Source: Rhypophila decipiens (lineage: Eukaryota > Ascomycota > Sordariomycetes > Sordariales > Naviculisporaceae). Taken from it: DNA of 64,000 bases. The notes under the pieces were generated by a model. The model searched no databases and had not been told where the DNA came from. It saw nothing but the letters and a program-made list of their open reading frames with translations. Within the stretch, counting starts at the first letter, position 1. The number at the start of each line of letters is the position of its first letter. Below are positions 20,461 through 54,349 of this stretch, piece after piece. The position numbers and the translations under genes were made by a program. The DNA lies in assembly GCA_033297075.1 (NCBI GenBank), contig MU858204.1, forward strand, positions 27,583-91,582, read 5' to 3'.

Positions 20461-20472
20461 ACAACAGCTCTA

Positions 20473-20920
20473 TGTGCTGCCCGAATCTTGCCCTCAGCCA
20501 TTTCCTAATTCGTGAGTGGGCCGGTGCTGCTGCTGCTTTTACATGTGCGGGGGTGTGCAGTGGGTGTGCTGGTGGTGGCGGTGCTTTTGGAGCCTTATTC
20601 TGCCACCCCGGTTAGAGTTGCCACAAAACCCAAAACTGGAAGAAGTCTTGCAAGGATTCTTTTATGGCTCTCTGGGTTCTCTTTTCCGTGCCTTTGTTCT
20701 TTTCTAAATTGATTTGTTCCTATTATTGAAATGCGCATTTGTAAGCCCAGCTACTTCAATTCACTAAAAGAGGAACATCGCACCTTCAAGAATTCAAAGC
20801 ACAACATTTCTCAAAAGAACAGGAATGAAGTAAGGCAAGTTAGAAACCCGTGATGATCTGTCATATTGCAAGGGAATAAGGTCGTAGTCAGACTTGTATG
20901 AACAGCCCGAGCGAATAGGG
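20473..20920 (+). repeat. Left-end repeat of the giant element (copy A)
   Basis: About 448 bases that recur at 55297-55853 in the same orientation, from TGTGCTGCCCGAATCTT to GCGAATAGGG, with many substitutions and a roughly 110-base insertion in the second copy. Non-coding: the small frame beginning MCCPNL is not conserved between copies beyond about 17 residues. The outermost bases form the inverted terminus shared with 48240-48262. Confidence 0.75.
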
Positions 20921-22390
20921 GGGTTTTTTAGTAAGAGGAAGAGTGGAAGCAGGGTTAGACACTCAACTGTCAAGCGGCATAGACAAGGCTGCCAGGGCTT
21001 TGTGATGCTCTAACCTGGCTGAGCCAATAGACGCTCTCCTAACATAACCTACTCGTATGAATGAAAACAGGGATTCGACGTGACATCGAAGCCATGCGTT
21101 ACAGCTTAGAGTCAGCATGGCTTTCATGTGAGTGATGGGTTCCAGTCCCTTGACGACTTGTACACAGCACCTGTGAGAGCTAAGTAGTCTCATAATTAGA
21201 TCTTATCTCTGAATCTTTCATTGAGAGCAAATCCCAACGCTATACTCATTGAAGGAGGCTTGGAATCTCTGCCTCGACTTTCCAGGCCTTAGGTTCCCAA
21301 ATCTCCTCGCTTGGATGTAATGTGGTCGGAAGCACTGAAGAAACAGGTCATATACTACTCTATGTTTTCTTTTTTCATCATCAGTTGTTTGCAGGTAAAT
21401 AGAGTCAGCCGTAGAAGGAGGGAGGGGTTGATGTTCCCCCTTGTTCACAGTTCCATGGTATAACGCAGCGTCTTAGGACTTCTTCCATGGCTTGCTCTTT
21501 CTGAATCTTGGCTTGCCCAGGTCACAATCGCAGTAATGAGACCACGCGGCCTCCTTAACGAAAATATGCCTCGTGGATCATTGAGTGCAATCCGTCACAT
21601 GAAGCATGAAAAGAATGGAGGACATCCCGATTCGTTCGTGACAGCATCGTTGGGGTTCTGGCACCAACAGCGTTAACCAGATCATTGCCCAATGAGAATG
21701 TTACGTATCATGAGCCGATCAGCTAGGACAGCCAACAAGCGGCGAAATACATGAAGGAAACGACAGTTCCGATCGTGTTATGTCAACAATACCTAGCCAA
21801 TTCCATCATTTGTCATCCCCAGGTTCTCCGGAGCGCTAGAGTTAGTGGGACTTAACCTTTTCTTTTTTACGGCTTTTGAAAGACCAACGTCCAACAACTT
21901 GATCCCTAATTACCACCTTCCAGAAGAAGAAGTGATATCGCTGCGCCAACAAGATTGTTAGTAGCCTCAGTCGCCTCACCTGTTACCTCGCCCGGATGAT
22001 TCTCTCCGTAGTCAAAACTTTTCACCATCACCAACACATTACCACCATTATCAGGGGTCTTTGGCATCACCTTTCTTGGCCCTCAACAGAAGATAGTTAC
22101 ATTCGACCAAGATATGGTATCAGTGCATTTGAAATGCTGGAGTTCGCCCCTTTTCGTGCACAGCTTGCAGAAGATATGGCGATTACCTTGGTTCCAGCTG
22201 TCAAGGGCCTCTACAATGACTACCCATATCGCCAACCATGTCTTTGAGACCTGAGTATGTCCTCAACTTGGTGTGTCTTGATCCCGTAGAAAGAAGCTCT
22301 TCAAGCTGGCCCACAATAAGCATCTCGAGGAATATAAACCGCCTTCCTTCCAATAAGAAGAAACGGAGACGTCTGAGCATACACACTACA
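20921..22390. other. Non-coding stretch between left end and Helitron relic
   Basis: No gene or repeat recognised in these 1.5 kb; AT-rich, with only short frames. Confidence 0.45.
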
Positions 22391-23989
22391 TCAAGGAACC
22401 GTACGACTGTCTTGCAACACCGCCGCCCCCGATGACTGAGGATGTGGTGCACCCGCCGCGATCTCTAACACTGCCGTGGCCCGCAACTCATTTAAAGACC
22501 CCATCGCCACCTGATGGAACTGTAGGAGTTGGCGCACTATCCCTGTAATCTCCGCCGAGCTGGCAGTGACCTCTGACTCCCCTATCGTGTTTCTCAGAAC
22601 GTCGATAAGTCGTGTGGCGGTACCGACATTATCAGACCGGTACCTTGTCTCCTGGTCCTCCTCTCCTTCACCCAGGCCCGATTCGACCGTGCCAGACGGT
22701 GCGTTGTTGTCCCCGGACATGGCAGCCCATTGCCTCGCGTCGCGTTTCGCGTCTTCTGCAGACCACCGGAGCAGCTGAATATTATCAACGTAATTTGATA
22801 CCCTCTGTGACAAGGCCTGCTTTTTCCCTTGCCAGATGTCGTTAATATCCCCTTGCGATTCGTTCAGAAAAGACTCCCACGGTACGAACATGGCGAGGTG
22901 CTGTACGGCCGCTCTGTATCAACAGCTGTCAGTTCACTAACCATTTCTATTTGTACCCCCTCCCCCGACAGAGCGTGATGAAATACGTACCTCCTGTAAT
23001 GTGTTTCGTCTTCTTCGTTGAAGTTCATGCTCAAATAACCATCCAGGCAGACGACAGCTTGCTTACCCGGCCTCCGCAACGACTGTATCCACATCTCTGA
23101 GGGAGGCCATGCGCTGCTGAAGTCCACCTCCCCCCACGCTGCCGCGCCGCTGCTCTTCCGCTTCAGCTTCACAATCGACAAGTAGTCATATAGCGACAGG
23201 TCCCGCAGGACGTCCCCGCGATGCGGGTACGCCTCTACCAAAGAAATCCTCTGCCCGGCCTCTTCTATAAGCACGGTCTCATCCACCGGTTGCTCCAAGC
23301 CTTCCATACCGGCCGATCGTCGGAGATGGTCCCATCTCCGGAAGATATACCAATACAGCGATGATGCGTTCAGAAACGTCCATGCCTCGTTGTTGGTAAA
23401 TTCCATACCATACCCCAACAGGTGCGACACAACCTCTACCTGCGACAGCGGCCGGTCCGTGAAGACCCGATTCGCAACCCTCATGAGAAACTGCTGTATT
23501 CTGTTGCCACGTCCGTCTTCCACGGAGGGCTCTCCTACGCCCTCCGCTTGCACCCCTCTGATCGAGTCCTGTCCAAGAACATCGATCAGTTCTGCCGCAG
23601 CGGCTGCCCGCTTCCAAACCGGATCTTCGACCTTGGTTGCGTACTTCGTCACGTAGTAGATGATCGCCATGGTTCTACGCTACGTCGCGATGAACGAAAT
23701 GTCGTGATTATGGCGAAGCCCTACCGCGATGCCTTTATTCCATCTGCTCACCATGCTATGATTACGCCGAATCTGCAGCACGCCCTCCTCAGTAAGCATG
23801 GTTTTTCTCCGATAGCTTCCATGGCGCCTTGAACCGGCAAAGCTCGCCGCTCCTTGTCTTTCCCTGTTGCCCGATCGCGTACTTTACGCATGTCGGGCTA
23901 TGCGTATGAATCTGCGCGGAACCAGCACAGAAATTCGCCTCCTCGTCGAATATGGCGGCAAACTGCTCACTGTTCTGCAGTAAGCCCAA
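22391..23989 (-). pseudogene. Helitron Rep-like (helitron_like_N) gene relic
   Basis: Reading the minus strand gives successive pieces of the Helitron helicase-like N domain: HTHSPTCVKYAIG and CRFKAPWKLSEK near 23,900, then after a frameshift near 23,810 LTEEGVLQIRRNHS and GLRHNHDISFIAT, an in-frame TAG near 23,680, then AIIYYVTKYATKVEDP with the tyrosine-containing Y..KY..K motif, and VFTDRPLSQVEVVSHLLGYG. An intron (22990-22914) joins this to FVPWESFLNESQ, DINDIWQGKKQ and LLRWSAEDAKRDARQWAA, the usual linker towards the helicase. The PIF1-type helicase itself is missing and the frame ends at 22391. It is therefore a truncated, frameshifted, inactive copy. Helitrons replicate by rolling-circle transfer and often capture host genes; whether this copy moved any neighbour cannot be told. 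Confidence 0.8.
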
Positions 23990-24505
23990 TAATTATGCAG
24001 CATCTCAGCCACAATTTTGACATGTAACCAACCCAATGAGAAGTTCATAGCCTTCCTGCATGCACAGTGGTGTGAATAAAAAGTCGGTTGCAATCATCCC
24101 CCATTCACATATTACTTCATGTTGCCACCGGTCCCAATCACTTTGTACACACCTGATCACCAACTGAGTATACCTGGTACCCGACAACACACTACAAGTC
24201 GAAGTTACCGACCATAAGATACTTGTATGATTCTTAATCTAACACCTAGTCAGCATCTTACCACACAGTACAATTATGTCCTCACCACCTAAATCCCTGA
24301 AGAAGGAGTTACTCAGGGTTGATCACTAACCCTCACCCCAAGTCTGGAGTGCTTCAGAACATCCCTCTTTATTAATTGCTTGTCTACAGCACTGGGCACG
24401 TGATAAATATTGTTATCTACCTCCACTGCACTTTACTCGGGCACTTCATACAAAAACCCCCTCCCTTCCTCGGTCGAGTATACCAGACCAATTCCGCAGG
24501 TGATG
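23990..24505. other. Spacer between Helitron relic and P450
   Basis: Could hold more decayed upstream Helitron sequence (minus strand), but I recognise no motif. It also contains the 3' end of the P450 gene at 24506. Confidence 0.4.
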
Positions 24506-26733
24506 CTAATTCTTCTCGCGCCGTGTGAAAACGACTTTGGTACTGTGTCTGGGCAGCATGGTCGACCGCCAAGTCAACCACCTGGAGTCTTGCTTATTCA
24601 GGAGCTCCAGGTCATAGGTCATGATAATCTGACCCAGAATGACCTTCATGACGGCAGTAGCGTAGTATCTGCCGGGACTGTATTTAGACAATGCGGCATC
24701 ACGTTAGTATACGGTCCTCTACCCACTAAGAAAAAGGAGAAGAAAACGGAAGCTCACCACGCCATACGGCCCGTCCCCCAAACATGGTACGTGCTGTCGC
24801 AGTCCGTCAACTTGGACGGCTTGGGCTGCGGCGTCTTGAACTTCTCAGCGGTGCCACTCCCAACGACGGCTGCGGCTGCCTGCTCTACGATAGCCGGATC
24901 CGCAAATCGGAAACCGTGAAACTGCAGAGGCTCGGGAAAGAAGTCTGGGTTGTGCATCATCGCCTTGACGGGGGTGCAGGCCCAGTCGCCCACGTTGAGC
25001 TTGGTGCCGTCCGACAGGGTGAAGGGCCGTAGGGCGGCACGACGCGTACTCTGCGCCTCGACCGGGGTGATGCGGGCAGACTCCTTGATGAAGCTGTCCA
25101 GCAGCGGAAGTCCCAGTCCGGTCTTTTCAAAGTCGGCATAGCCGGCGAGTAGTTCGTGGCGAATGGGCTCCAGGTACTCGGGATGCAGACAGAGGTCGTG
25201 GATGGCGAAGGTGATGGTCTAGGTAGGGGGTCGATCAGTCGAGACGAGCAAAAAGATTGGAGAAAGATTCGCGGGTGTGAAATTACGACCAAAACTCACG
25301 GTGGAAACGGCGTGCACAGAACCAAACCAAATGGCCATCAATTCGTGGACGATCCGCATTGGCGTCCAGGGGTTCGCCCGAGGGGAAGTTTCCATGATCC
25401 ATTGGATGCAGTCGGCCTTGTAGCAGTCAGTAACTTGAATCATTGGACTGGCCTTACTGCCAAACAACAACAAAAAGGAACAATACATGACGAGGGGTCT
25501 CATGACCCAGCTTCTTCCGGTCTCGCTCCAAGCATCTCTGCTCGGCCACGGGTACAAGAGTGTTATAGACGACCTCTTGATTCTTGATGCGCCGACTCAG
25601 TATTCGGCCAAGAACGCTGGGGACGAAAATAAGAGATTTGTTAGTATATTCTGCAACAGACCAAAGACTCGTAAGTAAAATACTCACGGGGATATAAATT
25701 TTGGCAGTAGGCGAACAATCTCGGCGCCGATCAACGTTTCTTCGACGTAGGCAAGTGCTGATTCCATGAAGGTTTCGTTCTTGGCTATCAATCGCATGGT
25801 GTTAGTTTGTGTTCAACACAGCAGAAGTGAAGATGCTCCCATACCCAAGTCATTCCCGAAGAAGGAAACCGCATTTGACAAAACTACCAGTTTCACGATC
25901 ATGGTAAAAACAGGACTTTGCCTGGATCCTATAAATGGATAAATAAACAGATTAATGATCTGGTCAGCTCGTCATTTGACATGTTTTGCCCGTTACTCAC
26001 CATTGATCACGGGATGAGAATCGTGAATCGCTTCAAATCTAGCCCGGATAATGGTACTCAAATCGGGAAGGATAGCGGGCAGGTTACTGGTCAGCATGGT
26101 GCGGAGAGCCTTGACGAAGCCGACGCCCTCGGTTCCTCGACGATCAAACCAGTTGAAAGCATGCATGGTGTACATGGGCTGAAGCATCTGCTTGGCCGCC
26201 GCCTGCAGCGAGAGAATGGTATCGGGGGCTGAGTCGAGCTCCTTGATGTACTTGGGTGAGGAAACGAAGACGTAGCGGCCATCAGGGGCGAGGACTTCAT
26301 ACGGCTCGCCATTAGACTGCAGAATGGCTTCTTTAGCACTCGCATCGACATAAAGAGGCATGATGAGATATGTGATACATTTTCAAAGCCACGCTGAATA
26401 ATTTCCATTCCACTGATGAGATATCTCCATGCATGGAAGCGACGGGAGATGGGTTTCAAGGTAATTCTGTTTAAGCCGTGGACCAGTTCAGTCTGTAAAT
26501 TTGTTAGCTTTGTTTTTGCGTGATCTCAGCACTTTTCGGCCTGGCATGTGATGACTAGCACGCACCAGAAGCTTATTCACAGGCTTGTAAACAAGTAGGA
26601 CGAAGAGGAGTGCAAGGATGCAGGAAACCGCAACAGCAGTAATGGAGTTGGCTTGAGCTGTCGACTTGATGCGCCAAGTTTGTTGTGGCCCTAGAGCCTC
26701 CTCAGCCGTGTTGTTGATGTTGAAGGTGTTCAT
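24506..26733 (-). CDS. Cytochrome P450 monooxygenase (ent-kaurene oxidase-like type)
   Basis: Nine exons on the minus strand: 26733-26566, 26492-26379, 26316-26001, 25928-25845, 25784-25688, 25616-25487, 25416-25300, 25218-24758 and 24677-24506. They join in frame to give 552 residues, with all introns GT-AG. The start MNTFNINN is the first ATG of the frame and is followed by one membrane helix (about 31-48). Motifs: EPYEVLAPDGRYVFVSS, MYTMHAFNWFDRRGTEGVGF, DCIQWIMETSPRANPW, an I-helix region LMAIWFGSVHAVSTTITF, ExxR as E388-R391, and the heme loop WGTGRMACPGRYYA with Cys496, where Trp replaces the usual Phe. The overall pattern is that of fungal P450s annotated as ent-kaurene oxidase-like, common in terpenoid and indole-diterpene clusters; the substrate is unknown. 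All codons between splice sites are open, so it is probably functional. First cargo gene after the Helitron relic. Confidence 0.85.
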
Positions 26734-29419: not shown

Positions 29420-31162
29420 ATGGCCGACACGGACGCTAATACCTACACCACACTATCGGAGCCACCCGAAAAGCCGTCCATCAGGGTGACGGCCACAGAC
29501 ACCATAACAGGATCAACGACAACGGAGGAAAATGATTCTAGTGGCGCTGTTGCGGGTCCCGAGCCGGGGCGACTACCTACCACCACCGGAAAGCGCACGA
29601 GGCAGCCCGCCCGCTTCTGGATGATCATTGTGGCGCTGAGTCTGCTAGCCTTCATCTCGTCCCTCGACGCCATGATCATGGGAACCGCCCTTCCCACTAT
29701 CACGGCCCAGCTCGGCGGCTCCTCAGTCTACGTGTGGATTGGCAATTCTTTCGTTTTGGCCGCCTCCGCCATACAACCCATGGTCGGCCAGCTGTCCGAC
29801 ATCTTGGGCCGCAAGACGCCAACAGTCGCCAGCGTGGTGCTCTTCACCCTGGGCAGCGGCCTTGCCGGGGGAGCCGTCAATCCCGTCATGTTCATCGCCG
29901 GTCGCGCCATCCAGGGCCTCGGCGCCGGAGGCATCTACGTGCTTATCGACATCATCGCCTGCGACTTGGTTCCGCTACGCGACCGTGGCAAGTGGCTAGG
30001 CATAATCAACGCCTGGGCAGGGGTTGCAGCCGCTCTCGGCCCCGTGCTCGGCGGTGTCTTGGGTCAAGATAACTGGCGATGGATCTTCTACCTGAACCTC
30101 CCCATATGCGGCGTCGCACTTGTCACCATCATGCTGTTCATGCACGTCAACACGGGCGCCCCCACGTCTAGTATCAAGTCCCTAGATGTCGTTGGCAACC
30201 TCATTTTCGTCCCGAGCATCATCTCGGTGCTCATCGGTCTGGTGACAGGCGGCGTGGTCTACCCCTGGTCCTCCTTCCGGGTCATCGTGCCCATCGTCCT
30301 CGGCCTCGCCGGCTGGGTATGCTTCCACCTCCACCAGCACTTCATTGCCAGCAACCCACTCGTGCCCTCCCGCCTCTTCTCCAACCGCACATCGGCGGGC
30401 GGATACCTTCTGACGTTCCTGTCGTCGGTACTCATCCAAGCGGCGGGCTATTTCCTGCCCGTCTACTTCCAGGCCGTGGTCGGCACCACCGTCATGGACT
30501 CAGGTGTGTACTTTTTGCCCTTTGCCATGGGTACCTTGTTCGCCGCCGCCATGGGCGGCCTGGCCATGAGTCACTTTGGCGTCTATAGGACCATCCACGT
30601 CGCCTCGTTTGCACTGAGCGCCATCGGCTTTGGGCTGTTTACGCTGCTCCGGCCCGACACCCCCAAGGTGGCCTGGGCCTGGTACGAACTGATTCTCGTC
30701 TTTGGGCTCGGGCCCAGCATCTCGACCATCTTGCCCGCCATCCTCGCTGGCCTCAGCCAGAGCGACGTGGCGTCCGCCTCTGCCGTTTTCTCTTTCATCA
30801 AGACGTTTGGCTTCGTCTGGGGTGTCTCGATACCGTCTATCATATTTAATGGCGTGGTGGACAATAACTTGCATGTTGTCTCGGATGAGAATCTGCGTGG
30901 GCAGATGGCGAATGGTGGGGCGTATGCTTTTGCCAGCCGGGTGCACGGTCTCGTGCAGACGGTTGATCCAGTTGTGTGGAGCGAGGTTGTTGAGGTGTAT
31001 ATTGTGAGTCTGAAGGCTGTGTGGTGGTTCGGGTTGGCGCTCAGTCTGGTGGGCTTGTTTTGTGTGGCCATTGAGGATCACCTGGATTTGTCGACCGAGT
31101 TGGAGACGGAATATGGGGTTCAGGAGAAGAAGAAGAAGCCGACGGGGGGTGAGGAAACTTGA
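29420..31162 (+). CDS. MFS drug:H+ antiporter, 14-TM (DHA2) type
   Basis: Predicted 580-residue intronless plasma-membrane exporter. After a roughly 65-residue polar cytosolic N-terminus come about 14 hydrophobic segments, starting with FWMIIVALSLLAFISSLDAMIMGTALP. Motifs of the DHA2 family are visible: WIGNSFVLAASAIQPMVGQLSDILGRK (motif A region with D..GRK), the TM4 R in IAGRAIQGLGAGG (motif B) and GVAAALGPVLGGVL in TM5 (motif C, antiporter). Such pumps export secondary metabolites or toxic compounds in exchange for protons and often sit in biosynthetic clusters. That fits its neighbours here: P450 genes on both sides and two FAD oxidases downstream. The gene looks intact. Confidence 0.88.
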   Translation: MADTDANTYTTLSEPPEKPSIRVTATDTITGSTTTEENDSSGAVAGPEPGRLPTTTGKRTRQPARFWMIIVALSLLAFISSLDAMIMGTALPTITAQLGGSSVYVWIGNSFVLAASAIQPMVGQLSDILGRKTPTVASVVLFTLGSGLAGGAVNPVMFIAGRAIQGLGAGGIYVLIDIIACDLVPLRDRGKWLGIINAWAGVAAALGPVLGGVLGQDNWRWIFYLNLPICGVALVTIMLFMHVNTGAPTSSIKSLDVVGNLIFVPSIISVLIGLVTGGVVYPWSSFRVIVPIVLGLAGWVCFHLHQHFIASNPLVPSRLFSNRTSAGGYLLTFLSSVLIQAAGYFLPVYFQAVVGTTVMDSGVYFLPFAMGTLFAAAMGGLAMSHFGVYRTIHVASFALSAIGFGLFTLLRPDTPKVAWAWYELILVFGLGPSISTILPAILAGLSQSDVASASAVFSFIKTFGFVWGVSIPSIIFNGVVDNNLHVVSDENLRGQMANGGAYAFASRVHGLVQTVDPVVWSEVVEVYIVSLKAVWWFGLALSLVGLFCVAIEDHLDLSTELETEYGVQEKKKKPTGGEET

Positions 31163-31475
31163 GGGGTGTGGTGTGACAAAGAAGGGTTGGTCGATAACTG
31201 TGTAAGGAGCGTACCTATATACTGGAACCATCTGAATACCGGTTATTTGGAGTGAGCTCATACTATTCTCTTGTGAGGTGCTTTGTTATTATACTGTACT
31301 GTTCTGGACAGTATTGGGTGGTCATTTGACTACCATGTATCTTTTTTATCATGGTTTTGTCATGGTTTGTTACGATTGTGTTTGTAAAAGACTTTCCCCG
31401 TTTTTGAGGGCAAAATGAACAACAAGATCCTGGAATCTTCCCCTCCTCGGAATCAACTTGCACTGATGCCACTAG
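31163..31475. other. Convergent 3' intergenic region
   Basis: 313 bases between the stop codons of the MFS gene (plus) and a P450 (minus). They must hold both polyadenylation regions; no further feature was seen. Confidence 0.5.
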
Positions 31476-33359
31476 CTACAATTGTCTCCTCCGCACCCGA
31501 ACCTTGCCCTGATGATACGGCACCTTCAGCCAAACCACACTGGTCAACTCGGGCCTCTTGCCCACATACTCGATATCGTAATTGAGCACCATGTGCGCCA
31601 CCATGATCTTCATTTCGTTGAGGGCAAAAAAGCGCCCCGGACAGGCGTGTCTGCCGTACCCGAACGCCAAGAAGCCATCGTCCAGCGAGGTGGCCGACTT
31701 GAACTGCGGAGCGTCGCGGAAGGGGTTGAAGCAGTTGGGGTCGTCGTCTGAAGGGTAGATGACCGGGTCGCGATGGATGCCGTCGAGGGCGGTCGCGATG
31801 ACTGTGCCGGGAGGGATGTGGAATTTACCCCCTGGGCTGTGCAGTGAGATGCCGTGGGGATCGATTACCTAGATTATTTTTTGTTCTTTGATTAGTACTT
31901 ACCCTAGCTACCACTGGGTTTAGAAAAGAGTGGGCTCACAGTTCGGGGAAGGCCAACAGATGCAAAGGGTGTCAACCTCATCGACTCTCTGACAGTCGCG
32001 TCGACGAGCTTAAGTTTTTGAAGGGTGTTGCGGGTCCAGAAACCTCCAGCTTCTGCGAGGACAGTGGAAACCTCCTCGCGCAAGGCCTCGACAAGAGTGT
32101 TGGTGTTCTTTTCTCCATCATCGCCACCATCATAGGTGTAGATGTCGGGGATGACATTTTGCATGGTGAAACTTGTCGAATGCAGTGAGATGTCGTTTAT
32201 ATAGAGTAGACGACGGGTCACTCGCACAGGGTCGAGGTCAGTTGGATCTTGGGTTGCGTAGCTTTCTTCAATGAGCCATTGGAGGCCATCTCTCTGGTTT
32301 GTTCGGGGACAATCAGCATATATACGTCAGATTTTCTGTATTGTGCTGTGGTATGAACCTACAGGCGCCTCCCAGCAGAAGTTCGGGTCATTCCTTGCTC
32401 TGGCTGTATTAGCAAGCCGCTTCTTGATGAAGGGCAGACACAGCCACTTGGTGCGGAGAAACTGGTATTCGCAAGCCCAGCCTATCAACGTCCCGGTGAC
32501 GGGCCTGAAGAAGAGGGGTGTCGAACTGATCAAGAGAGCACCGAGAAATGTAATCATGCCATGGTCTCGCAGACTCTTTAAAAATGCAGCGTCCTTGCCT
32601 GTGCGAGTTTAGAGATCGATCATGAAGGCAAAGTGAAGAAGAAGGTTAGGTAGTACTACTTACATAGGGGCTCGCCGCAGAAAGCGGCATTAGACGCCCC
32701 CGTGATCAAGTCCAGGCAAGAGTCCCAAACGGAAAACTCCTTCCATTTGTTCCTGTCAGTTCCCCACAGTCGCGCAAAGGACGCCTCGAGCTCGGCAGCA
32801 ATGACAGGGGTGAGCACATCCAGATTCCGAGTCATCTGGTTGCGAACGATGTTCATCTGGAAAGGGCGGGAAACAACTCCCTGGTCTGCGATGGTGTACT
32901 TTGCCTGCATGGAGCCGTCCGTCGACGTTTTTTGCATGTCTAGCACCTTGTCGGGGAGCCCGTAGACCGTTTTGAGCTGTTTGGGCGGGATGATGACTAC
33001 CGGACCACGATCGACGCAGGGCATGATGAAGGGGGAGTTGAATCTTCCGAACTGCATGCCGGGGGGTTTTCTTAGTATGTGTTTTTCTTTTCCTGACCTT
33101 TTCAATCCTTGGGCAAAATTTAATTCACCTTTCTATACCCTTCAAGGCTCCATTCCTTGGACATGTTAAACGAGCGCAGTGACGCTCGCTCCCAGTCAAA
33201 CCACCGATTAGACCGGGTGCCGATGGTGGGTTTTCCCGTCTTCCAGTCTCGTGACCATGACCGTCTTCGTCGCGACAGGACATATCCCGTGACCAGGACA
33301 GCGGATATCAAGGTCGCAAAGAGTTGGACTTGGACTGGGAAGGCAGATGTCATGTTCAT
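31476..33359 (-). CDS. Cytochrome P450 monooxygenase
   Basis: Five exons on the minus strand: 33359-33139, 33070-32664, 32598-32363, 32293-31940 and 31868-31476, giving 536 residues. The first donor is chosen as GTATAG at 33138 because only this phase joins exon 1 to the KPPGMQFGRF frame; it is the least certain junction. One N-terminal membrane helix (about 8-28) is followed by a basic stop-transfer RRRRSWSR. Motifs: GPVVIIPP, an I-helix-like NDISLHSTSFT, ExxR at E391-R394 (VRESMR), and the heme loop FGYGRHACPGRFFA with Cys482. The combination resembles fungal P450s of secondary metabolism. It is transcribed convergently with the MFS gene and 3.2 kb from the Pth11-like gene start. Intact apart from the splice uncertainty. 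Confidence 0.82.
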
Positions 33360-34857: not shown

Positions 34858-36390
34858 TCACCACGGCAACGGGTTGTTCCCAACCGGTCTTACATGGACA
34901 TCTGCCACCAACTTCCTCGTCGATCGGTTCTGGTCCTCAAGTTGGTAGTACTGATTGATATTTGGCATGGGGCCAATGTTGCTCCTGCCTGTCTCTTGCG
35001 AGTCTTGGGATCCCTTGGACCCCTTGGCCCGAGTGATATTGCGGCTCGACGTATGAGAAAGCAGAGAAGTGAGGCGCGAGTACCAGCCTGACTTGACGAT
35101 GAAGGTGGCCCAGAATGCCTTGACGGCCGGAACGCAGCCGGCCGCGATGACAATGGTGGTCTCCAGGATGCTTGTAAAGAGCGTCAGTGTCTATAGTCCT
35201 TTATTGATATTCAAAGGTCTTGACAGTTACAAGGACTCCAGCAGGCTTGGACTGCTTTCCAAAACTTACCTTAGTTCCATAGCAAGCTGCACATCTGTCG
35301 TTTTGCCAGACCGGGAATCGAACTTGAACTTGGTCGACACAGCGGTGACAGCAATGGCGCTGTGCACAGAGATTATGTGTTATTGACTTCTCTCAGCAGT
35401 GAAACAGTTACCAGAGGATTTCTCGAGGTTTATTTGACTTACAGAAGACCAAACAAGAACACTACCAGTAGCCCAATCTTCTTCTGCAACGAGAGCTGTA
35501 GCTTGAGAATGGCTGGAAGTGGCAGGATAAAAATCACGACATCGGCAGCAAGTCCTATTGGAGCCAGAATCACACCCGTTAAGGAACTAGCATCGGTGCA
35601 CTTTGCCATGAAGCCAAGATAAACGGGGAGGATATCGTCTGCCGAGGGTGGCGCACAGATGACGGCGTTGTAAATATCGGCCGAAATGATGGCCAGTCCC
35701 AAGACGACAATAGTGATAATGGATGTGATCCGGACGCCACGGTAGATTCCAAAGATGCGTGCTAGGAGAACAAGGACAGGGAGTTTCGCCGTCCACATGG
35801 CGAATCCGGAGAGGAAAATTTCGGCTTCGGCATACTAGGGATCAATCAGTTCAGGTTATTCATCCATGTAGTCAACATTGGCAACGGATATCGGGATTCT
35901 GTACCTGAGCGATTCGACGAATGGCTGGACGCGGATCTGACGTTGTGAATAAAGCTGGATCGCCCTGGGCTGCAGTGGACAAGTCAGGTAAAGTGGCAAA
36001 GATAGGGAATGACGGGAATGACACACCCCGGATCAGAACAAGGAATACTGCAAAGCTAGCAGTAAGGAAAGCTGTTGCAATGACAGAAAGGTCTGGTTGA
36101 CGCGCGTAGGATTAGTATCCTAGTTTTGAAGATCGGATCTGCGGCATGGACAGTGCTCTACATAGCCCGTGCGAGCAAGGAGAGCAGAGCCTGAGCTGTA
36201 CACCTGCAACAGGCTTCAGCCATGAGAGAAATTGGCTCGTGTTCTTACAGTCGTCCAAGTGCGGTTTTCCTGTCGTGTGCAAGTTGGCCAAGAGACGCAC
36301 GGAGACTATGACAGCAGTGAAGATGGAGAGGACTATCCCGGCGGACAAGAAGCCGCTAGTATCGGGGGCCGGGGGAATGGTGGTGCTCAT
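34858..36390 (-). CDS. Pth11-like / rhodopsin-like 7-TM integral membrane protein
   Basis: Six exons on the minus strand: 36390-36249, 36092-36027, 35969-35905, 35834-35443, 35359-35270 and 35170-34858. They give 355 residues; if the small intron at 35970-36026 is retained the protein has 374. Seven hydrophobic segments are predicted, for example FLSAGIVLSIFTAVIVSVRLLA, VIATAFLTASFAVFLVLI, LSGFAMWTAKLPVLVLLARIF, ITSIITIVVLGLAIISADIY and IGLLVVFLFGLLAIAVTAV. The conserved loop LDDY after TM1, the Cys pair between TMs and the Ser/Thr-rich cytosolic tail fit the fungal rhodopsin-domain (PF20684) family. Such proteins are plasma-membrane proteins, some acting as G-protein-coupled sensors; no ligand can be inferred. 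It is divergent from the FAD oxidase at 37513, and both may share the intervening promoter region. Confidence 0.78.
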
Positions 36391-37512
36391 GATGCCGATG
36401 GTGATGCTAAGGAAAAGCAGCGGTGAAAAATAACTGAACGAATGGAATCGAATTGCATGCAGAGAGGAGAGCAAATCCCACTTTCATATTGGAAATATAG
36501 TTACCTACATATCCAAGGTCAGCAAACTAGTTCTGAAGACCTGATCAGACAACGTCAAGTTTGATGCCGGCCTGAAACGCCTGCCAACACCGGGGCCGAA
36601 CAGAGTGAACTTCGAATGCAGAGCCGGTGAAGGGCGGGCCGTGCCGTATCATCGCTCAAACCAATTCACCAAAGTTTCCGTTTATCAGATTGGCTCCTCC
36701 GGCAAATGCACTATTGCCAAAGTAGCAAGGAAAGTTAGAGGACAGGGCCGGAGTAAAGAGGGTGGGGTGAATGTATCAATTCAGCTCGAGGCTATCAACC
36801 GAAGTACCTTACCTGCCAAGAATTTACATGGCTAGAATCGCCAACTGCATATATGTGCCCCTTTGCCCGCTGCAATCTTGTCTACAGGCCTCTGTCCGAA
36901 AAATACACACACCAAGTAACAGGTACCGTACAGACCACTCGCGACTGGTCGTAAAGAAACCAACTGCATCAGTTGCGCAGAGGGGACCCGCAACGCCCCG
37001 ATCCGCCTATGGTCTGGTCCGAACAGTCACAGTTCCACACCAACCAGGAACTTACTGTACTATACCTGTAGTAATTATTCAATTAATTATCTATCCATGC
37101 CTGACAACGTAACCGGGTGCTGGGCCGTACATGTACCGTGTAATAATGTGTTTGCTAACCGTGACGAAGCCAACAGACGCATTCGCGTGCAGAAAGAAAA
37201 CCAGCTGTCAACCTGTCCCCCTCCTCCCTTTCCCGTCCCGCTCAAAGTTCCCATCAAGACACTATAAGTGATACACAATTAATATGTTGATTCCGCCCAC
37301 TGTAGCATTAGCAATTCCCACGTGGCCGTGTTACCTTGGTTCACCACCCAGAAAACACTCTTAAGAGGATTGGAAAAAAGAGAATGTTGGAAACGATGAT
37401 GATCCACTTCAGGTCAAGGTCCAGCGCCAGCCACCTCGTCGTCCGAGCCGCCGTTGCCATCATTTACCCCTTACTCCTGTCACAGAGCTTGCCTTTCATC
37501 TCACAAATCACT
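36391..37512. promoter_or_regulatory. Divergent promoter region between Pth11-like and FAD oxidase genes
   Basis: 1.1 kb between two divergently transcribed cargo genes. No coding sequence was recognised apart from a possible upstream extension of the FAD oxidase frame to an ATG at 37384. No specific operator was identified. Confidence 0.4.
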
Positions 37513-39143
37513 ATGGCAGAACCACTACCTCAGACAACAGTCAACGGTGTGGTTGAAACATTGAAGGCGGCACTCCCCATGGGGCGTATCCACCTCAGGG
37601 GATCCCCAGAGTATGAAAAGTTGAACAGCGCGTACCTGTCGGGTCTGGAGAGTGATCTCCGCCCCCTCGTCATCTTTCAACCCTCCACCGTGACCGAGAT
37701 CTCCACCTTTGTCAAAATTCTCACCCCCTTTGCGGGTGTGGTCGAGTGTGCCATCCGTGGTGCCGGTCAGCAGCCTCTTCCCGGCTGCGCCAATGTCGAC
37801 AACGGTATCACGCTGGAACTCAGCCTGCTCAACAGCATTACTCTCAAGAACCAGAACTCTGTTGTGCAGATTGGAGCCGGTGCGCGATGGGGTGTCGTCT
37901 ACCAGAAGCTTGATCCCCTCGGTAAGAGTGTGACAGGCAGTCGAAGTGCACAAGGTGGCATAGGAGGATTGGCACTAGCAGGTGAGTAAAAGATTCTCCT
38001 TTTTTGTCCCTCCCATACGACTACCTGACTTTACTTGGTCCTTGAGATGCTCATCCTTAATTCCTGCAGGTGGCCTCTCCTTCTTCTCTAGCAGCCAAGG
38101 CTTCATCTGCGACAATGTCCTCAACTATGAAGTCGTCCTCAGCTCAGGCAAGGTCGTCCAGGCCAATGCCAACGAGAACCGCGATCTCTGGGTAGCCCTC
38201 CGTGGCGGAGGCAACAACCTGGGCATCGTGACGCGATACGACTTCCGCACCTTTGACCAAGGCCTTCTGTGGGGCGGCAACGTCTTTTACTTTGCCGACA
38301 GCTTCCCGGGGCAGATCCAGGCCCTCATCACCGAGCTCAAGAAGCCCAATGCCACGGAACTGACGCACCTGATGATCAGCATCGGCTACTCGGGCGCCCT
38401 GGCCGCTGCGTTCGGTGTCCCCATCATGTGCTTGAACCAGCCCTACTACACCAAGGCTGTCGAGAACCCCCGCGTGCTCGAACCCTTTACCAACATTACC
38501 CCGCAGATCCAGGCGCTCAACTCGATGAGTTTGAAGAATGTCACGGCTGCGGCGTCGGAGCAGACCGCGGCTGGGCAGTCCCAAGTTAGGTACGTGTCAT
38601 CGTTTCAGTTCACATTCCATTGCCAACAAGAAGAGGACTAAAAATGTTGGCTTTACTAGGGCTGGATACATCAACATCCATGTCAAGGCCGACGTAGCCA
38701 CCCTCCAAGCTATCAGCGACATCTACACGGCGGCTCTCCCCCCGCTCTACAACGTTGCCGGCATCACGCTCTCCCTCACACTCCAGCCGTACCCCGTCTC
38801 GCTCCTGGCCAAAGGAGATGCCGCAGGTGGCAACGTGCTTGGCCTACATGCCTCGGACGGACCCATAGTGTCCGTCTTGCTGCTCTCGTACTGGGAGAAG
38901 AAGACGGACGACGCCGCCGTCATCGGCTTTATGGACGCGACGCTGGCCCAGATGCGGGCAGCTGCCACAGCCAAGGGCACCTTCCTCCCCTTCATCTACA
39001 TGAACTACGCCTGGAAGGGCCAGGATGTCATCAAGTCGTATGGTACGGCTAACAAGGCCAGGTTGCAGGCGGCGAGCAAGAAGTATGATCCCATTGGAAT
39101 GTTTCAAAAGGCATTCACGGGAGGGTTCAAGGTGTTTCCATAG
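37513..39143 (+). CDS. FAD-binding (PCMH-type) oxidoreductase
   Basis: Three exons, 37513-37981, 38070-38589 and 38660-39143, give 490 residues. The ATG at 37513 has a good context; the frame is open upstream, and an ATG at 37384 would add about 43 residues containing a hydrophobic stretch that could be a signal peptide, so location is uncertain. It belongs to the VAO/PCMH flavoprotein family (FAD_binding_4): LRPLVIFQPSTVTEIS, IRGAGQQPLPG, GARWGVVYQKL, GGIGGLALAGG and ALRGGGNNLGIVTRYDF are all visible. The position where many berberine-bridge-type enzymes carry the FAD-linking His (RGGGH) here reads RGAGQ, so the 8-alpha-histidyl bond should be absent. The usual C-terminal BBE motif is not obvious. 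It could oxidise an alcohol, amine or ring carbon of the cluster product. Confidence 0.83.
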
Positions 39144-40184: not shown

Positions 40185-41738
40185 ATGTTACTTTCTTCGA
40201 TGTCCCTCTTTATTGTGGCGGCTGGCTGCTCGGTCCAAACGGTTACAGCTGCGGCAGGACCAGGAGGATCGTCCTATCGCTACGCATCCATCATTGACAA
40301 CTACAAGGGCCAATACGACCAGGTACTGCAAAGAGACGTCTGCGTTATAGGCGGAGGAGCGAGCGGTGTGCACGCTGCCGTCTCATTGAAAGACCTGGGC
40401 AAGACGGTAGTCGTGGTTGAACGCAGCTACCGTCTTGGAGGCAATACCCTCACCTACCTGGACCCGGGCACGGGCATCCCCATCGACGTCGGGGTCGTGG
40501 TCTTCCAACCACTCCCGGTCGTCCGCCGCTTCTTTGCCAAATTTAAGGTGCCAATGGCTAATACTTCCACTTTGACACCCAACGCCCCTGGGCAACCCGC
40601 CGACCTCTCAGTTCCAGCTCCACTGTACCAAACCACCCAAGTCTTTAGAGACCTACGGCATGGAACTCCAGTCAACCTCACGCCGCAGGAGGGTGCCGCC
40701 GTTCAGAAGGCAGTGGCAGGTTTGGCGGCTATCATGGCCAAATACGCCTACATCCTAGAGGGCTTCCAGGCCCTCCCGGATCCGGTGCCCGAGGACCTGA
40801 TCATGCCCTTCGGCGACTTCATGACCAAGTACGACCTCACTGCCGCCATCCCCATCGTCTTCCAGGTGGCCCAGGGTCTGGGTAGTCTGCTCCACCTTCC
40901 CACCATCTACGTGATCAAGTACTTCAACCTCGGTGACATCAACGCCTTCGCCAATGGCTATCTCACCCAGGCCCAGGGCAACAACTCGCTGTTGTACACC
41001 CGAGCGGCAGAATACTTAGGAGACTCCAACATACTGTACGAGTCCACCGTCATCCAGGCAAACCGACCAAAACGAGGCGGCCAAAAACAACCATCAGAAC
41101 TCCTCGTCTCCACATCAGATGGCGGCGTCAGTCTCCTCACCTGTGGCCAAATTCTCCTGACCATCCCACCCACGCTCGCCAACCTCGCAGGCTGGGACCT
41201 CACACCCGAGGAGCACGCCGTCTTTTCCCAATTCACCGCCTCAACCGGCTATTGGACCGGTCTCATCAGAGGCCTTGGCAAGGGTCTCAACCAAACAGTA
41301 GCCTACCAGAACGCCGCCCCCAGCAGCTCATTCCACCTCCCCGTGCTGGGACCGGCCTTGTACAACGTCGCCGCCGTGGGCGTGCTCGATGACGTCTGGT
41401 GGATCAAGGTAGGCGCCGACACGGCGACTCTGCCGGATGAGCAGATCAAGATGCGGGCTATACGCGAGGTCCAAAAGCTGCAGAACGCGAGCGGAGGGCG
41501 GGTGTCGGTGACGGAGCCAGAGTGGTTGATCTTTGACTCGCACGCGCCGTTCATGATGCAAGTCCGGCCGGAGGTTATCAGAAGGGGTTTTTACAAGAAG
41601 TTGATGAGGTTGCAGGGCGGGCTGGGCGGGAGCATGTTTTATAGCGGGGCGGCGTTTCATACGCATTACAGCGGGTATTTGTGGAGGTATAATGAGGATG
41701 TGGTGATCCCCTTGATGGTGAGAAAGACGGGGAACTGA
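40185..41738 (+). CDS. Secreted FAD-dependent amine oxidase-like flavoprotein
   Basis: Predicted 517-residue intronless protein with a signal peptide (LLSSMSLFIVAAGCSVQTVTA). Residues 51-80 form a dinucleotide-binding beta-alpha-beta unit, VCVIGGGASG with the acidic ribose ligand Glu79, followed by RLGGNTLTY, the second FAD motif typical of NAD(P)-binding Rossmann-like/amine-oxidase flavoproteins. The rest matches the general length of the group. No covalent-FAD Cys context is evident at the C-terminus. Several N-x-S/T sites are consistent with secretion. Beside another FAD oxidase and P450s, it probably belongs to the same pathway; the substrate is unknown. Confidence 0.8.
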   Translation: MLLSSMSLFIVAAGCSVQTVTAAAGPGGSSYRYASIIDNYKGQYDQVLQRDVCVIGGGASGVHAAVSLKDLGKTVVVVERSYRLGGNTLTYLDPGTGIPIDVGVVVFQPLPVVRRFFAKFKVPMANTSTLTPNAPGQPADLSVPAPLYQTTQVFRDLRHGTPVNLTPQEGAAVQKAVAGLAAIMAKYAYILEGFQALPDPVPEDLIMPFGDFMTKYDLTAAIPIVFQVAQGLGSLLHLPTIYVIKYFNLGDINAFANGYLTQAQGNNSLLYTRAAEYLGDSNILYESTVIQANRPKRGGQKQPSELLVSTSDGGVSLLTCGQILLTIPPTLANLAGWDLTPEEHAVFSQFTASTGYWTGLIRGLGKGLNQTVAYQNAAPSSSFHLPVLGPALYNVAAVGVLDDVWWIKVGADTATLPDEQIKMRAIREVQKLQNASGGRVSVTEPEWLIFDSHAPFMMQVRPEVIRRGFYKKLMRLQGGLGGSMFYSGAAFHTHYSGYLWRYNEDVVIPLMVRKTGN

Positions 41739-42360: not shown

Positions 42361-42790
42361 TTACTGCGATGGGTCCATTCTCTCCCCGTTCCAATCCAAC
42401 CTCCCTGTTGACATGGCATACTTGATCACTGCCCGAACTGCCTTCATGTCTGGTAACCAATCCTTGGGGTCTGATGGCGCTTTTCCTCCTACAAAGAAAG
42501 AGAGACTTCCCCGTCTCGTTGTTGTGCATTGCAGCATGCCTTCACGTAGAGCCGTCCATTTTATGCATCGTAGTAGAAAGTGATCGATTGTTTCCCTCGC
42601 GTGACCACACTCGCATAGTTTGGATTCAGCGGCTCCGATTTTATTAAGGAACCCGTTCAGTCTTGCCATTCCCGTCCGCAGTTGAGCTAGTACGCACGCT
42701 TCTTTCCGTTTCACTTTGTTGTTCGGTCACGTACCGGAGGGAGGCAAACCCGATCCCGGGTCACCTGACTTGGCAAAGTTACCCTGCAGC
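42361..42790 (-). mobile_element. LINE (Tad1-like) ORF2 3' end fragment
   Basis: The minus-strand frame ending at 42361 reads LAQLRTGMARLNGFL, then LCECGHARETIDHFLLRC. This is the Cys-rich CxCG...ET.xHFLLxC module found at the end of ORF2 in fungal non-LTR retrotransposons, after the RNase H region. Only the last roughly 140 codons remain and the upstream part is broken. It is therefore a truncated, dead copy. Confidence 0.7.
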
Positions 42791-42879
42791 TTTGCTGACT
42801 AATTTGGATCGTGGCAGTTGGAGTGGCTTGCTTGGTGGCACAACACACCAGAAGACGTTCGTCTTTTTCGCATCGACAG

Positions 42880-43560
42880 CACGCAATCCGCAATGACAGA
42901 CTAACCGCAATCAAAGATCATCAAGGAGAATCCCATCGGGAACCGCCTTGATGCCTTCCAAGCTTTGTCTCATTCGACCTGCAAAGGCGGGCACCTATCC
43001 CACACTCCTGACGTGCTCCAGCAACTAACCCTCTGACCATCGCGCAGACCTCCAGAATCCCACCATTAACCTTCTTTTAGCATTACAAAGCCTTCGGGCC
43101 TCTCGTCTGCTCCGTTCCAGCGGCAGCGGCAAGAACCTCTTGAACTCCGACGACTTCGACCTCGACCGTATCAAACCTCTCCTAAATGCGGCTCTCGCCG
43201 ACCATCTAGACGATTCCCTTATCTGGAGCCGAGTCTGCAACGCCGTTATCGAATCGACCCCCAATCCCCAACCGATCGCATCATGACTTCAACAAACCCC
43301 ATGGTTGCGCGTAACACGAGCAGCTTCGCAAATTCTTCTGAACATCGCAAGCATGTGGACGGTGTGCTGAAAGAAGAGCTCGGCCCTATGTATGTTGGGC
43401 TCCGCAACTTCCACGAGGCATTTTTCGGAGGCGTTGCAGGTTTCGAGACTGCGTCTAAGGCAGTTCTGAAAAAGTGCATGGAAGGCAACAACCCACAATT
43501 TCGTATAGAAGAAGGGTAGAGAGGTGGCCGGAAGATGCGAACTAGGATCGTGTCTTCGGC
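42880..43560 (+). pseudogene. FunK1 fungal-type protein kinase, N-terminal fragment
   Basis: Pieces of the N-terminal region of fungal-type (FunK1, PF17667) kinases lie in three frames of the plus strand: RLTAIKDHQG, RLDAFQALSHSTCKGGHLSH followed by TPDVLQQLTL, IKPLLNAALADHLDDSLIW, then SSFANSSEHRKHVDGVLKEE with GPMYVGLRNFHE, and WPEDAN before an in-frame TAG. Frame changes and stops separate the pieces, and the kinase domain itself is absent. It ends at a C/A homopolymer tract. A decayed, truncated gene. Confidence 0.65.
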
Positions 43561-44224
43561 TCCCCCCCCCCCCCTCCCCCACCCCCCCAACAAAAAAAAA
43601 ACATTATGCCAAGCACTTGTCGATTGAAAAGTGGACGGAGCCACGGTACTCCCATGGCACATTCCCGTCTTCGCCTCGTATTTGGAGTGATTGGTGGAGC
43701 AGATTCAATTGGCCGGCTCCCTACACCTAGAGACCTAGTAGTGTTGTTGCTGGGTTTGCTGTTACGGATGTGGGACTAGGTGATGAACGGTTGGTATGTA
43801 CGGCGAAAGCAGGACATGAGTAATTCGAACAAGAGTGAAGTTTGGGTCCTTGTTCAAGAAAAAGGATAAGCTCCTGTTGGGTATTAGCTCTCCTCTCCAA
43901 AATCTCCCTGTGGCCCTTCATATCACCGTTCTCCTTCAAGTCAGTGATCCTGCCTCGGCCAGCCTGGGATTTCTCGAACAACTTCTCTGCCTCCTGTATG
44001 TTCGCGGAATGGCTCTCTAGGAAGGTGCAGAGTCCTTATAGCGGCCTAGTATTCGCGACCCGACAGGCCTCGGAGAATCTGGACACGGTCATGCTGTTAG
44101 GCATGCTCTCGATGTAAGGGCATAAGACGCTCATTTGTCACCTAGTCATTCTGGCACTTTATGAAGTATCTATATTTTTCGTACTAAGTACTCACAAATA
44201 AATCCACCGCTTACCCCGCTGCCT
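43561..44224. other. Non-coding, with C and A homopolymer tracts
   Basis: Bases 43561-43605 form a nearly pure C tract followed by an A tract. The rest shows no gene. It lies downstream of the recombinase pseudogene. Confidence 0.5.
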
Positions 44225-47200
44225 CTAACCTCTTCTCCTCTTTCGTTTTGTCTTTTTCTTTGGCCTATATTGCCGGACCAGCTCACGACCCAAATACTTC
44301 TCATGAAGCCACTGGTCTTTCCACTTCCCGCCTTTCCAGCGCACCCGATCCCGCATTCCGTCTGAATCCCGGCGGGTATCCAGGACCTGTACTCCGTGGT
44401 TGAGCCCCCGGTGTGTCTTATTAAGAGCTTTAATAAGCGCTCGGTCTTCAATGGTTTCTCGCGGCTCCCAACTGCAGGTCCCATCAAGCCATTTTACATA
44501 GAAATGGTCTTGTCTCCATCGGTCGAGCAAAACTTCAACGGAATACAAGTTGTCAGCCAGGGGATTTTCCTGATGTGCTGCTCCCTTGTCGCCTTCGGGG
44601 CATTTCGGCACCTTTATAGTAATCTGTGTTGTCCTCGACAGTGACTCCATCCTCATGTCTTGTGGCTGGGCGGCTGTGGATTGAACTACTGGGTATAAAC
44701 CTTCCACCGACAGGCCATCCATCTGCCCCAAGAACGCCCCGTAATTTTCGAGGCTGAGGTCAATAGAGTTTTCCGGGACGAGAGAGGGGCGCGAGAAATT
44801 CTGCGCGCCTGGATCTGCCGGTGCTTTGGGAAGGAGTGGCCTGTCACATACGAGGATTCCTCCCGCCGGCATAGCATAATCGGAGTTTTCCAGGTGGGGC
44901 GGCGGATCAGATCCGGCCCTGTCATGGTTTTCCGCTGTCCTCCATAACGAATCACCACAGGCGGAAGATAATGTCAAATCTGTGCAGCAGTCCATGGCGT
45001 CTCCAGCCCACCCACATGACGCGAGGTCGGTCAGCTAGCCAGGGAGAAGACCATGAACCAGGCTCTGTCTCACCATCGATAGAAGTAAATCCAGTCAATG
45101 GGGTCGATTCGGAGGCTGCCGATGGGTGTTCCCGAGGCTCGGAGTCCTCATCTAATACCGAAGAGAACGGCGTGCTAGCTCTGGAAGAGCCGATAACTCC
45201 TGCAGTTTGGCTCTAGAGAGTGGACCAGATGTATTCTTGTGTCGCAGCAACTTCTGTCGGATCGAGGTCCCCGGGTACCAGATTTCTGAACTTTCCGTTC
45301 GTACTGCCAACGTTCTTAGGAAGTGGCTTCGTTCCGGCTTTCCGAGGCGGGTAGCTATGGGCATCCTGGAGGTGCCACCAGCATTCCTGCGCCGTATCGT
45401 AAGTTAGGGAGCACACCAGGTGGGGACATGGAATGGCGTCCTGTCGCTTCTGCTCGTGGACGTATTCCGTAAAGCAGCTGTTGACGTGCTGTTCCTAGCT
45501 GGCCTTCTTCTGATACCCGCGCAGTCGAACAGCTGCCGGTAGGCTGTCCTTGCCGTAACAGGTCGCATACCGTCCGTCATAAGCGGTGGCATGCCGGAAA
45601 TCACAAAATCGTACCGCAGTGCATCTCCCAGGCGGTCGCAGACGTAACCCAGTGGCCACACAAAAAACAAAACTCTGCAAACCCGTGTTGTTTCTATGGT
45701 AGGCCATGGAACATGTGAATATGTGGCTCCACCTTTTGCCAGGCTCCTTTCTGTGAAATGTTAGTATGTGACAGCATAGGCTCTTGCGCTCCACTTACTC
45801 CTCTACATGCTCTGTACAACCTGGGGTCGGGCACAAACCTGTACCCTGCCGAGGTTGGAGAGACTGTTGGTACGCAACATTGGAGGGCTCTCTGATGAGG
45901 CTTATTAGGTGATTGATAGCCTGGATGCCTTCTGCACTCCGCAGCGGCGCATTGAGGAAAAGCAGATCGGCAAGCGAGCTACGATGCGGCATCATGTGGC
46001 GGAGACGGCCGAAACGAGTTCGATGTTGATCGGTATGGAACGACTTCGTACTATCCGAAGGGTGGATCCGTTCCTGGGTCTTTTGGATATTCAACAGTTC
46101 TTGGCGCACTAGTTTTCGCTTCCTTTCGTACAGCTCGGCTCGCTGGGATTTTAGCTCGCTAATGACCGCTGGGACAATGCTGCGTTGATCTGTCTTATGA
46201 TGCCATCGATAGCGCTGACAATCTCAATGTATTCGGGCCGCTCTTGTGGCTCGTCTTGTTGTTGTGCCGGCAGCGACAGGAACAGTTCCGGATTCCGCCG
46301 TACAGTGGCTGATCGGAAATCTTCAGCCATGTCTCTCCTCAGCTGAGTTCCGAGAAAGCTTGCTTGGCCGTCAATGCCGCATATGGAACTCAGGTAGTCT
46401 CTCGTGCGGGTTATTTGGTTCGTGTGCGCAGCAAACTTCAGGAGCTCGTCGTTCGAAAAGCCGTTTTCTGTAGCTAAATGTTAGCTAGCTGCAACCTTGA
46501 GAAAGGAGAAGCGTACCAGTCGCTTTGAGAATGGCATTGCGGCGGCCGCTGTGGACTTCTATAGCCTCTCGCAGCCTGGCGCGTTCCGATAGACTGGCGA
46601 GCTGGGAATTGAATGAGGAGCCCGTCTGTATTTTGTCCCAGACTGGACCGTCTGCCGAGACCTCCGGGAAAACTGGGTAGTCCAGCACCGTGTCCTCCCA
46701 TTCAAACTCCCACTGGCGTCCGTCCTCGGGCGGTGTGGCCGCTAAAACCTGCTCGAGAGTCTTATATCACTTGAGAGCGCCGGCAGCCAAGAGCACCGCG
46801 AGTGTGAATACCATCGGCTGAACAACGAGAAGCTGGTCGGGCACCTCCTCGTACAAGATGTGGGTTGGCCTGTCCATTCGTCGTCGTTAGTAGCCCACTG
46901 ACCGATACTGTAGAGACAAATTACCTCTGTGCCGGCTTGTCGTGTAGTCCCTTTGCGAATTCCCTCTTCAGACTGTAACGCAGTTCCGGCTGGCCGTCTT
47001 TCCATGTGACGAGTAGCACAGTATCCTGCCGCCCCGGAGTCAGCGGGGTCATCATGAATGCTTCGTATCCGTGCTTACTCTATAACGTAGCCCATTGCCG
47101 GTTCCTCTTCGAGTCGAGCCCTCGCTAATCTCGCCAAGCCTCGTGGGGGTATAGACGTGGCACTTCGGCTTGGCGCTGATGAAAACTCGATACGCCTCGT

Positions 47201-47822
47201 GCACGTACTCATGTGGGTCGTTCTCCCAGAGCTGTCGTTCCAGGTATATGAAATTTTCGAGGGTTAGGAATGTCTTCGTCCTAGTAAGTTCGGACAGACC
47301 GAGTTTCGATTTAATTCTTGTCTTGATATCCTTTGGTTTGTCAGAGCGAATGACTGTAGTGGGATGGCAGCAGTTGAACTTACATCGGTGACTGAATCGT
47401 GGAAGTCACGCGGGATGATAGACTCGGGATTCTGTAGATTCCAACCCGAGACGAAGCGCCAAAAATAATTTCTCACAGTCTGTACAGCTGCTTTCCCACT
47501 TGGATCAAGGATGCCTAGGGTGGAATTACCAATAAACTCGGCAAAGAGTTTGAGAGACTGTAAGCAAAGGGCACTTGCAACAGTGCCATGCTTTCTGAAT
47601 AAATCGTCTTTACACCTTTTATTCAAGTTAGCTTGTCTCACTTCCAATTCGACTAACAGCAACTCACTCATCCCACAATTCTAGCAGTATTTCATACTGG
47701 CCTTGGGTGTAGGGCAAGACTGGCCGTGGAACAGCATTGTTGTTAACATTATTAATATCGCCAATATACCCCTTCTCTTCGGCGAACCGTCTTGTCTTCG
47801 CTGCAGACTTTGCTTTAGGCAT
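44225..47822 (-). pseudogene. DUF3435 tyrosine recombinase ('captain'-like) with C2H2-like fingers and chromodomain, inactivated
   Basis: Minus strand, ATG at 47820-47822. The start reads TRRFAEEKGYIGDINNVNNN, the usual opening of the DUF3435/'FluG domain' family. Introns restore the frame repeatedly: GTGAGT near 47,690; GTAAGT at about 47,385; GTAAGC at about 47,080 leading to DTVLLVTWKDGQPELRYSLK; then RPTHILYEEVPDQ, WEFEWEDTVLDYPVFPEV, LREAIEVHSGRRNAIL, FAAHTNQITRTRDYL and IDGQASFLG, the region where the R..HxxR..Y recombinase residues should lie; a helical KSQRAELYERKRKLVRQELL follows. Further come GLCPTPGCTEHVEE and KRWSHIFTCSMAYH, then a finger CSLTYDTAQECWWHLQDAH. A 94-base intron (45073-44980) joins in phase to a chromodomain: YSVEVLLDRW, HFYVKWLDGTCSWEP. 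Lesions: TGA 46767-46769, TAG 45495-45497, TAG 45213-45215 and a frameshift near 46170. Captains excise and insert Starships; this copy cannot. Confidence 0.75.
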
Positions 47823-48059
47823 TCTAAAACAACTGTATAACGAAGACGGGGAGGAAGAAAGGGGTTAGCCTTGAGTAGGGCGCGCAAGACGGGAGAGGGA
47901 AGAATAGTGGCGGGACTGAGAGAACGAAGGCAGGCCAGTGGCCGATGATTCAAATCTGAAAGTAGTGTGAGAACTTGTAAGATCATAAGGGGGCCGTTTC
48001 TGGCCCCTATAAAAAGATCTAGGCCTGGTGGCAGAATAAGCACTAGGGACACCGCTGCA

Positions 48060-48264
48060 AAAATGACTCCTTGGTTGTCGCTGAAAATGACCCCTTGCAC
48101 ATTGCGAAAAGTTATAGTTTTCCGAACACTCCCTAGACCACATAATCCATATTCGTTCAGCACCCGGTGCCGTCCTGTGCCCGCCCTGTTTAGCCTCTGC
48201 TTAGCGCCTGCTAAAGCGGCGGGAGACTTTGGGGGCCGAGAGGGCAAGTTTCGGGCAGCACAAC
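48060..48264 (-). repeat. Right-end repeat of the giant element (copy A)
   Basis: About 205 bases, upstream of the recombinase gene, that recur in the same orientation at 55062-55289 at roughly 75-80 percent identity by eye. Shared landmarks are GAAAATGACCCC, TAATCCAT, CTGTTTAG, GCGGGA and GGGGGCC, ending in GGGCAAG...CGGGCAGCACAAC. The last bases form the terminus inverted to 20473-20495, and ACAAC is the proposed core. Confidence 0.75.
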
Positions 48265-54345: not shown

Positions 54346-54349
54346 GGCA

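Follow-up and report, generated by a model that had tools for sequence, protein, structure and literature searches.

The window analysed here is a stretch of DNA of 64,000 nucleotides that corresponds to positions 27583-91582 of contig C160 in the host assembly (45.7 Mb in 408 contigs), and its right edge is the end of that contig. It contains a segment of 27.8 kb bounded by the short direct repeat ACAAC, at 20461-20465 on the left and at 48260-48264 on the right (no strand assigned to either; the right copy reads GTTGT in the orientation of the captain gene). The AAC at 20463-20465 forms the core of a family of repeated ends, to which belong the left, captain-distal end LE1 (20463-20920, plus strand) and the right, captain end RE1 (48125-48264, minus strand). 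Between these ends lie several metabolic genes and, as the first gene from the right, a DUF3435 tyrosine recombinase, the captain.

Genes between the two ends

Pfam scans covered 30 open reading frames (ORFs) of the interior and seven captain-side pieces. From left to right they identified a P450 piece (24757-25218, minus strand; PF00067, E 2.7e-12), an MFS transporter with an open ORF of 580 aa (29420-31159, plus strand; PF07690, E 7.2e-38), a second P450 in two pieces (31479-32326, minus strand; PF00067, E 3.9e-19 and 9e-8), a fungal rhodopsin-like piece (35442-35834, minus strand; PF20684, E 7.8e-17) and an FAD-binding oxidase in several pieces (37312-39140, plus strand; PF01565, E 2.4e-9), the C-terminus of which weakly resembles the berberine bridge type (BBE, E 0.018, below cut-off). 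These are followed by a CpaO-like flavoprotein with an open ORF of 517 aa (40185-41735, plus strand; PDB 9vex, E 7.8e-52), the best solved relative of which is beta-cyclopiazonate dehydrogenase. At least two of the cargo ORFs, those of the transporter and the flavoprotein, are open, and no synthase gene was found among the interior ORFs scanned with Pfam. A possible reverse transcriptase tail is present at 42364-42726 (zf-RVT, E 0.03, below cut-off). Nothing was marked by the RIP indices over the segment as a whole; its TpA/ApT index is 0.75, versus 1.04 over the adjacent 48265-55289.

The nearest named relatives of the transporter are found in the sordariomycete fungi Podospora australis and Apodospora peruviana (84%), Madurella fahalii (78%) and Chaetomium globosum (73%). 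At least 15 of the 89 other flavoprotein matches pair with a transporter match on a contig of equal size, a comparison made by eye with the best 120 of 907 transporter matches and with equal size as a proxy for contig identity. The locus tags of transporter and flavoprotein differ by four in C. globosum, where they span CHGG_09829 to CHGG_09833, as well as in M. fahalii and on both Monosporascus contigs, and by two in Cudoniella; the intervening genes are known as tags only. In the window three genes separate the pair, which is the spacing implied by tags four apart. Since the relatives of both genes are paired on equal-sized contigs, the interior contains a gene set that is conserved among fungi. 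The host itself has no closer relative of the flavoprotein than one with 35% identity. A literature search found no papers naming the C. globosum locus tags that were searched.

The captain (45216-47822, minus strand, lower limit uncertain) reads inward from an ATG at 47822, which lies 442 bases from 48264. PF11917 (DUF3435) matches 46533-46859 on the minus strand (C160:74115-74441) with 29.7 bits versus a cut-off of 25.8, and one TGA falls within the matched region. An earlier note, made from the letters of this DNA, had described a captain pseudogene at about 440 bases from the right limit; its position and direction stand, whereas most of the frame breaks are introns and a stop remains. Six introns of 48-55 bases, each with GT, a CTAAC- or CTGAC-like motif that we take to be the branch site, and AG, account for most of the frame changes. 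Three kinds of lesion remain: a TGA that lies in frame at 46767-46769, a shift of frame near 46200 where no canonical intron was found, and a stop near 45495 with C-terminal disorder beyond it. The captain is probably dead. Downstream of it, an ORF at 44228-45034 (minus strand) weakly resembles a chromodomain (PF00385, E 0.043, below cut-off) and may be either the tail of the captain or a separate gene. It occurs once in the host genome and its structure model has a mean pLDDT of 40.7, too low for use.

Copies of the ends in the host genome

The earlier note had delimited the element base by base, by means of a 5-bp direct repeat and 22 of 23 inverted terminal bases. ACAAC is indeed present at both limits and the inverted match was reproduced: the left terminal inverted repeat (20473-20495, plus strand) equals the reverse complement of the right one (48240-48262, minus strand) at 22 of 23 positions, for which plain arithmetic gives a chance expectation of about 0.002 in 64 kb. 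The 23-base pattern, with one position A or T, occurs five times in the 45.7-Mb assembly versus zero times for the reversed control; when up to three mismatches are allowed the numbers are 22 and four. Known ends account for 13 of the 22 loose matches, a set that misses the end on C135, the repeat of which carries an insertion. The other nine (L069-L077) have no end context and were rejected as chance matches.

The termini were also searched against the genome, as the note had proposed. With 20463-20920 as query, 10 rows at eight places were obtained; the captain end has six copies, at 48264 and 55289 in the window and on C64, C153, C135 and C139. All stand beside unrelated DNA. The contigs C133, C138, C153 and C64 terminate within an end. 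The outward flanks of the eight left ends (1500 bases each, 762 for C316) lack mutual similarity at E 1e-5, and those of the six right ends are likewise unrelated to one another. Mean pairwise identity per 10-base block of the left ends rises from 0.22-0.34 outside to 0.77-1.00 inside (28 pairs); for the right ends the values are 0.21-0.32 and 0.79-0.96 (10 pairs among the five ends that align gap-free, the sixth having an insertion). Beyond the inverted repeat left and right ends are dissimilar.

Both limits are thus genuine recurring element ends, but the precision claimed for them holds only as far as the short repeat allows. The left tip is AAC in seven of eight copies, the exception being C316, and the right tip is GTT in all six; the two bases outward of the left AAC are AC in four of seven, and the two bases inward of the right GTT are GT in four of six. 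Since only AAC/GTT is constant across the copies, the dependable direct repeat is 3 bp rather than 5 bp. As judged from these copies, the agreement over ACAAC is that of a constant 3-bp core and a common preference for the next two bases, and the limits are therefore certain only to within 3-5 bases.

A second copy of the full element was not found in the host genome, where the ends alone recur. On C279 similarity to the 27.8-kb element is absent beyond the end over a further 9.1 kb of interior. The match of the left end on C167 ceases after 108 bases, and the copies on C167 and C19 are both short (about 110 bases). Short solo ends occur on C135 and C139, the former retaining about 65 bases of the right end followed by an intact gene.

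Next to the right end on C139 stands a truncated relative of the window captain. Its weak piece begins 42 bases from the tip; the strong match, in which 66-75% of amino acids and 68.6% of bases over 512 columns agree, begins at about 130-140 bases. This neighbourhood ties the end to the captain family independently. In the host genome, a protein search with one captain piece matched only the window captain and C139. In a search for captain relatives with a one-frame query (X at stops), none of 7988 scored candidates reached E <= 0.001, a weak negative since much of the query was non-coding. Genome-wide, DUF3435 matches 20 rows on 13 contigs, the window included, and several of these are broken; other captains are found on C7, C263, C221, C242, C1 and C370, none adjoining the ends described here.

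One insertion or two relics

Cryptons are tyrosine-recombinase elements with short direct repeats, and in this the window element resembles them. According to PMC12134995, Starships differ from Cryptons in having inverted repeats and a large cargo; the element has inverted repeats and metabolic cargo, and classification as a Crypton was rejected. Starships are defined in PMC12153272 by a DUF3435 captain as first gene at one end, direct repeats, cargo and a size of about 20-700 kb, and terminal inverted repeats are given for 18 of 20 Starships of A. fumigatus. In common with these Pezizomycotina elements, the window element has a captain as first, inward-reading gene, though broken, short flanking direct repeats (ACAAC), terminal inverted repeats (22 of 23 bases), cargo, and a length above 20 kb. 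If LE1 and RE1 bound one element, its cargo is unrelated to transposition and its size of 27.8 kb lies in the range given. Judged by anatomy the element is a Starship, and the Starship-type organization proposed in the earlier note is borne out by the recurring ends, the inverted repeats, the DUF3435 captain first inside the right end and the metabolic genes.

There are also differences. Unlike described Starships, the element has a broken captain and a direct-repeat core of 3 bp; a GTT(GT) core is absent from the target sites in Table 1 of PMC12153272. Chromodomain genes are described in PMC12153272 and PMC12506042 for the Starships Janus (Phoenix family), Sanctuary and Frontier, which the window element would resemble in its possible chromodomain ORF, a match below cut-off. 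In Sanctuary and Frontier the chromodomain gene is reported to lie at the far end from the captain, whereas the candidate in the window adjoins the captain.

We consider it likely that LE1 and RE1 delimit a single insertion, a Starship-type giant transposon of 27.8 kb that carried conserved metabolic genes and, given the stop and other lesions of its captain, is now probably immobile. On this reading all that lies in between would be cargo, as the note had inferred. LE1 and RE1 face each other and share ACAAC, and a search with the inverted-repeat pattern, allowing three mismatches, found no other ends between them. For eight left and six right ends scattered at random over 45.7 Mb, the expected number of facing pairs no more than 28 kb apart is about 0.015, a rough figure since ends cluster. 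The left flank of the element is single-copy in the host genome; the left-hand part of the window, at 7-17 kb, carries HET, amidohydrolase and P450 genes. A paralogous empty site was sought via the repeat that starts at 48289 and was not found; the seven copies shown differ upstream of the repeat.

The same facing arrangement, common ACAAC and low random expectation, together with the more than 450 bases of end sequence that LE1 retains, make it unlikely that a resident metabolic cluster was merely enclosed by two independent relic ends, LE1 left by one insertion and RE1 with the captain by another, while the genes between never moved. Some weight must be given to this alternative because the gene set is conserved and solo ends occur elsewhere in the genome. 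The 15 cases in which relatives of transporter and flavoprotein share equal-sized contigs come from fungi in which no Starship was shown. Moreover, another right end and left end lie only 7 kb away, which means that ends cluster in this region.

That further right end, RE2 (55134-55289, minus strand; 98% identity with the beginning of C153 over 156 bases), lies beyond RE1 in identical orientation, and LE1 could pair with it to form an element of 34.8 kb in which RE1 represents a nested element that lost its own left end. We regard this as highly improbable, since LE1 has ACAAC like RE1, whereas RE2 has ATAAC, and a DUF3435 match is absent beside RE2. Although some copies of the ends measure about 110 bases (C167, C19), it is hardly tenable that these ends derive from a common type of short inverted-repeat element with no relation to the captain, as the same right end stands beside the same captain family on C139 and as left and right ends differ past the inverted repeat.

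Read from right to left, the single insertion that we favour would run from the captain end at 48264 to the distal end at 20463; its captain would pair the two inverted ends and cut at GTT, and the excised element would close into a circle with one GTT, which would insert at GTT(GT)-like sites. The insertion bounded by LE1 and RE1 would have brought in the conserved metabolic gene set, the captain having gained its stop and other lesions later.

Fixing the limits of a Starship usually takes a second strain with an empty site. In the present case the copies of the ends in a single fragmented assembly place the limits to within 3-5 bases, and they also provide the GTT core and the terminal sequences that go with one captain family. 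Should LE1 and RE1 stem from one insertion, the broken Starship would house a conserved metabolic gene set, a case of relevance to the question of how such clusters pass from fungus to fungus and later become settled.

A second joint and the surroundings to the right

RE2 meets a second distal end, LE3 (55287-55853, plus strand), across a single AAC at 55287-55289. LE3 is 86% identical to LE1 over 378 query bases. Such a joint would be expected from the closure of a circle, from a head-to-tail pair or from the insertion of one element at the core of another, and it is consistent with the AAC/GTT core. It may have arisen when a circle integrated or when elements inserted in tandem, or it may be a fault of the assembly, three readings that are inseparable since the ends are repeats, the contig stops 8.7 kb on and DUF3435 is absent beside RE2. 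Only tentatively, and with more doubt than confidence, do we read it as the trace that a Starship family in circular or head-to-tail form left in the chromosome and that, with the 27.8-kb element 7 kb away, would make up a serial array at one core. The joint may then have arisen from an element that inserted exactly at the captain-tip GTT of another, or from an integrated circle. If true, a serial array at one core site would reveal the crossover core (GTT) by sequence alone. A literature search whose coverage excluded most subscription papers listed none on a head-to-tail joint of Starships.

A dispersed repeat at 48289-48706 starts 25 bases outside the right limit, and the stretch 48265-49000 has 14 genome matches, its own place included. 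Another repeat occupies 49000-49282 and has further copies at 52498, 53925 and 54350. The segment 50134-50364 is 99% identical to the end of C316, at about 530 bases outside the left end on that contig. Between RE1 and RE2, 104 bases at 52379-52482 (plus strand) are 78-89% identical to the DUF3435 captains on C1, C58, C221, C242 and C263 and form a remnant of another captain family. Past the beginning of LE3 lies an open frame of 1668 aa (57508-62511, minus strand) with a match to a sacsin domain (PF25794, E 3.3e-9). Finally, the last 94 bases of the window (63907-64000) are 99% identical, reversed, to DNA immediately beyond the captain of C221, which is either a repeat or a hint that the two contigs join.
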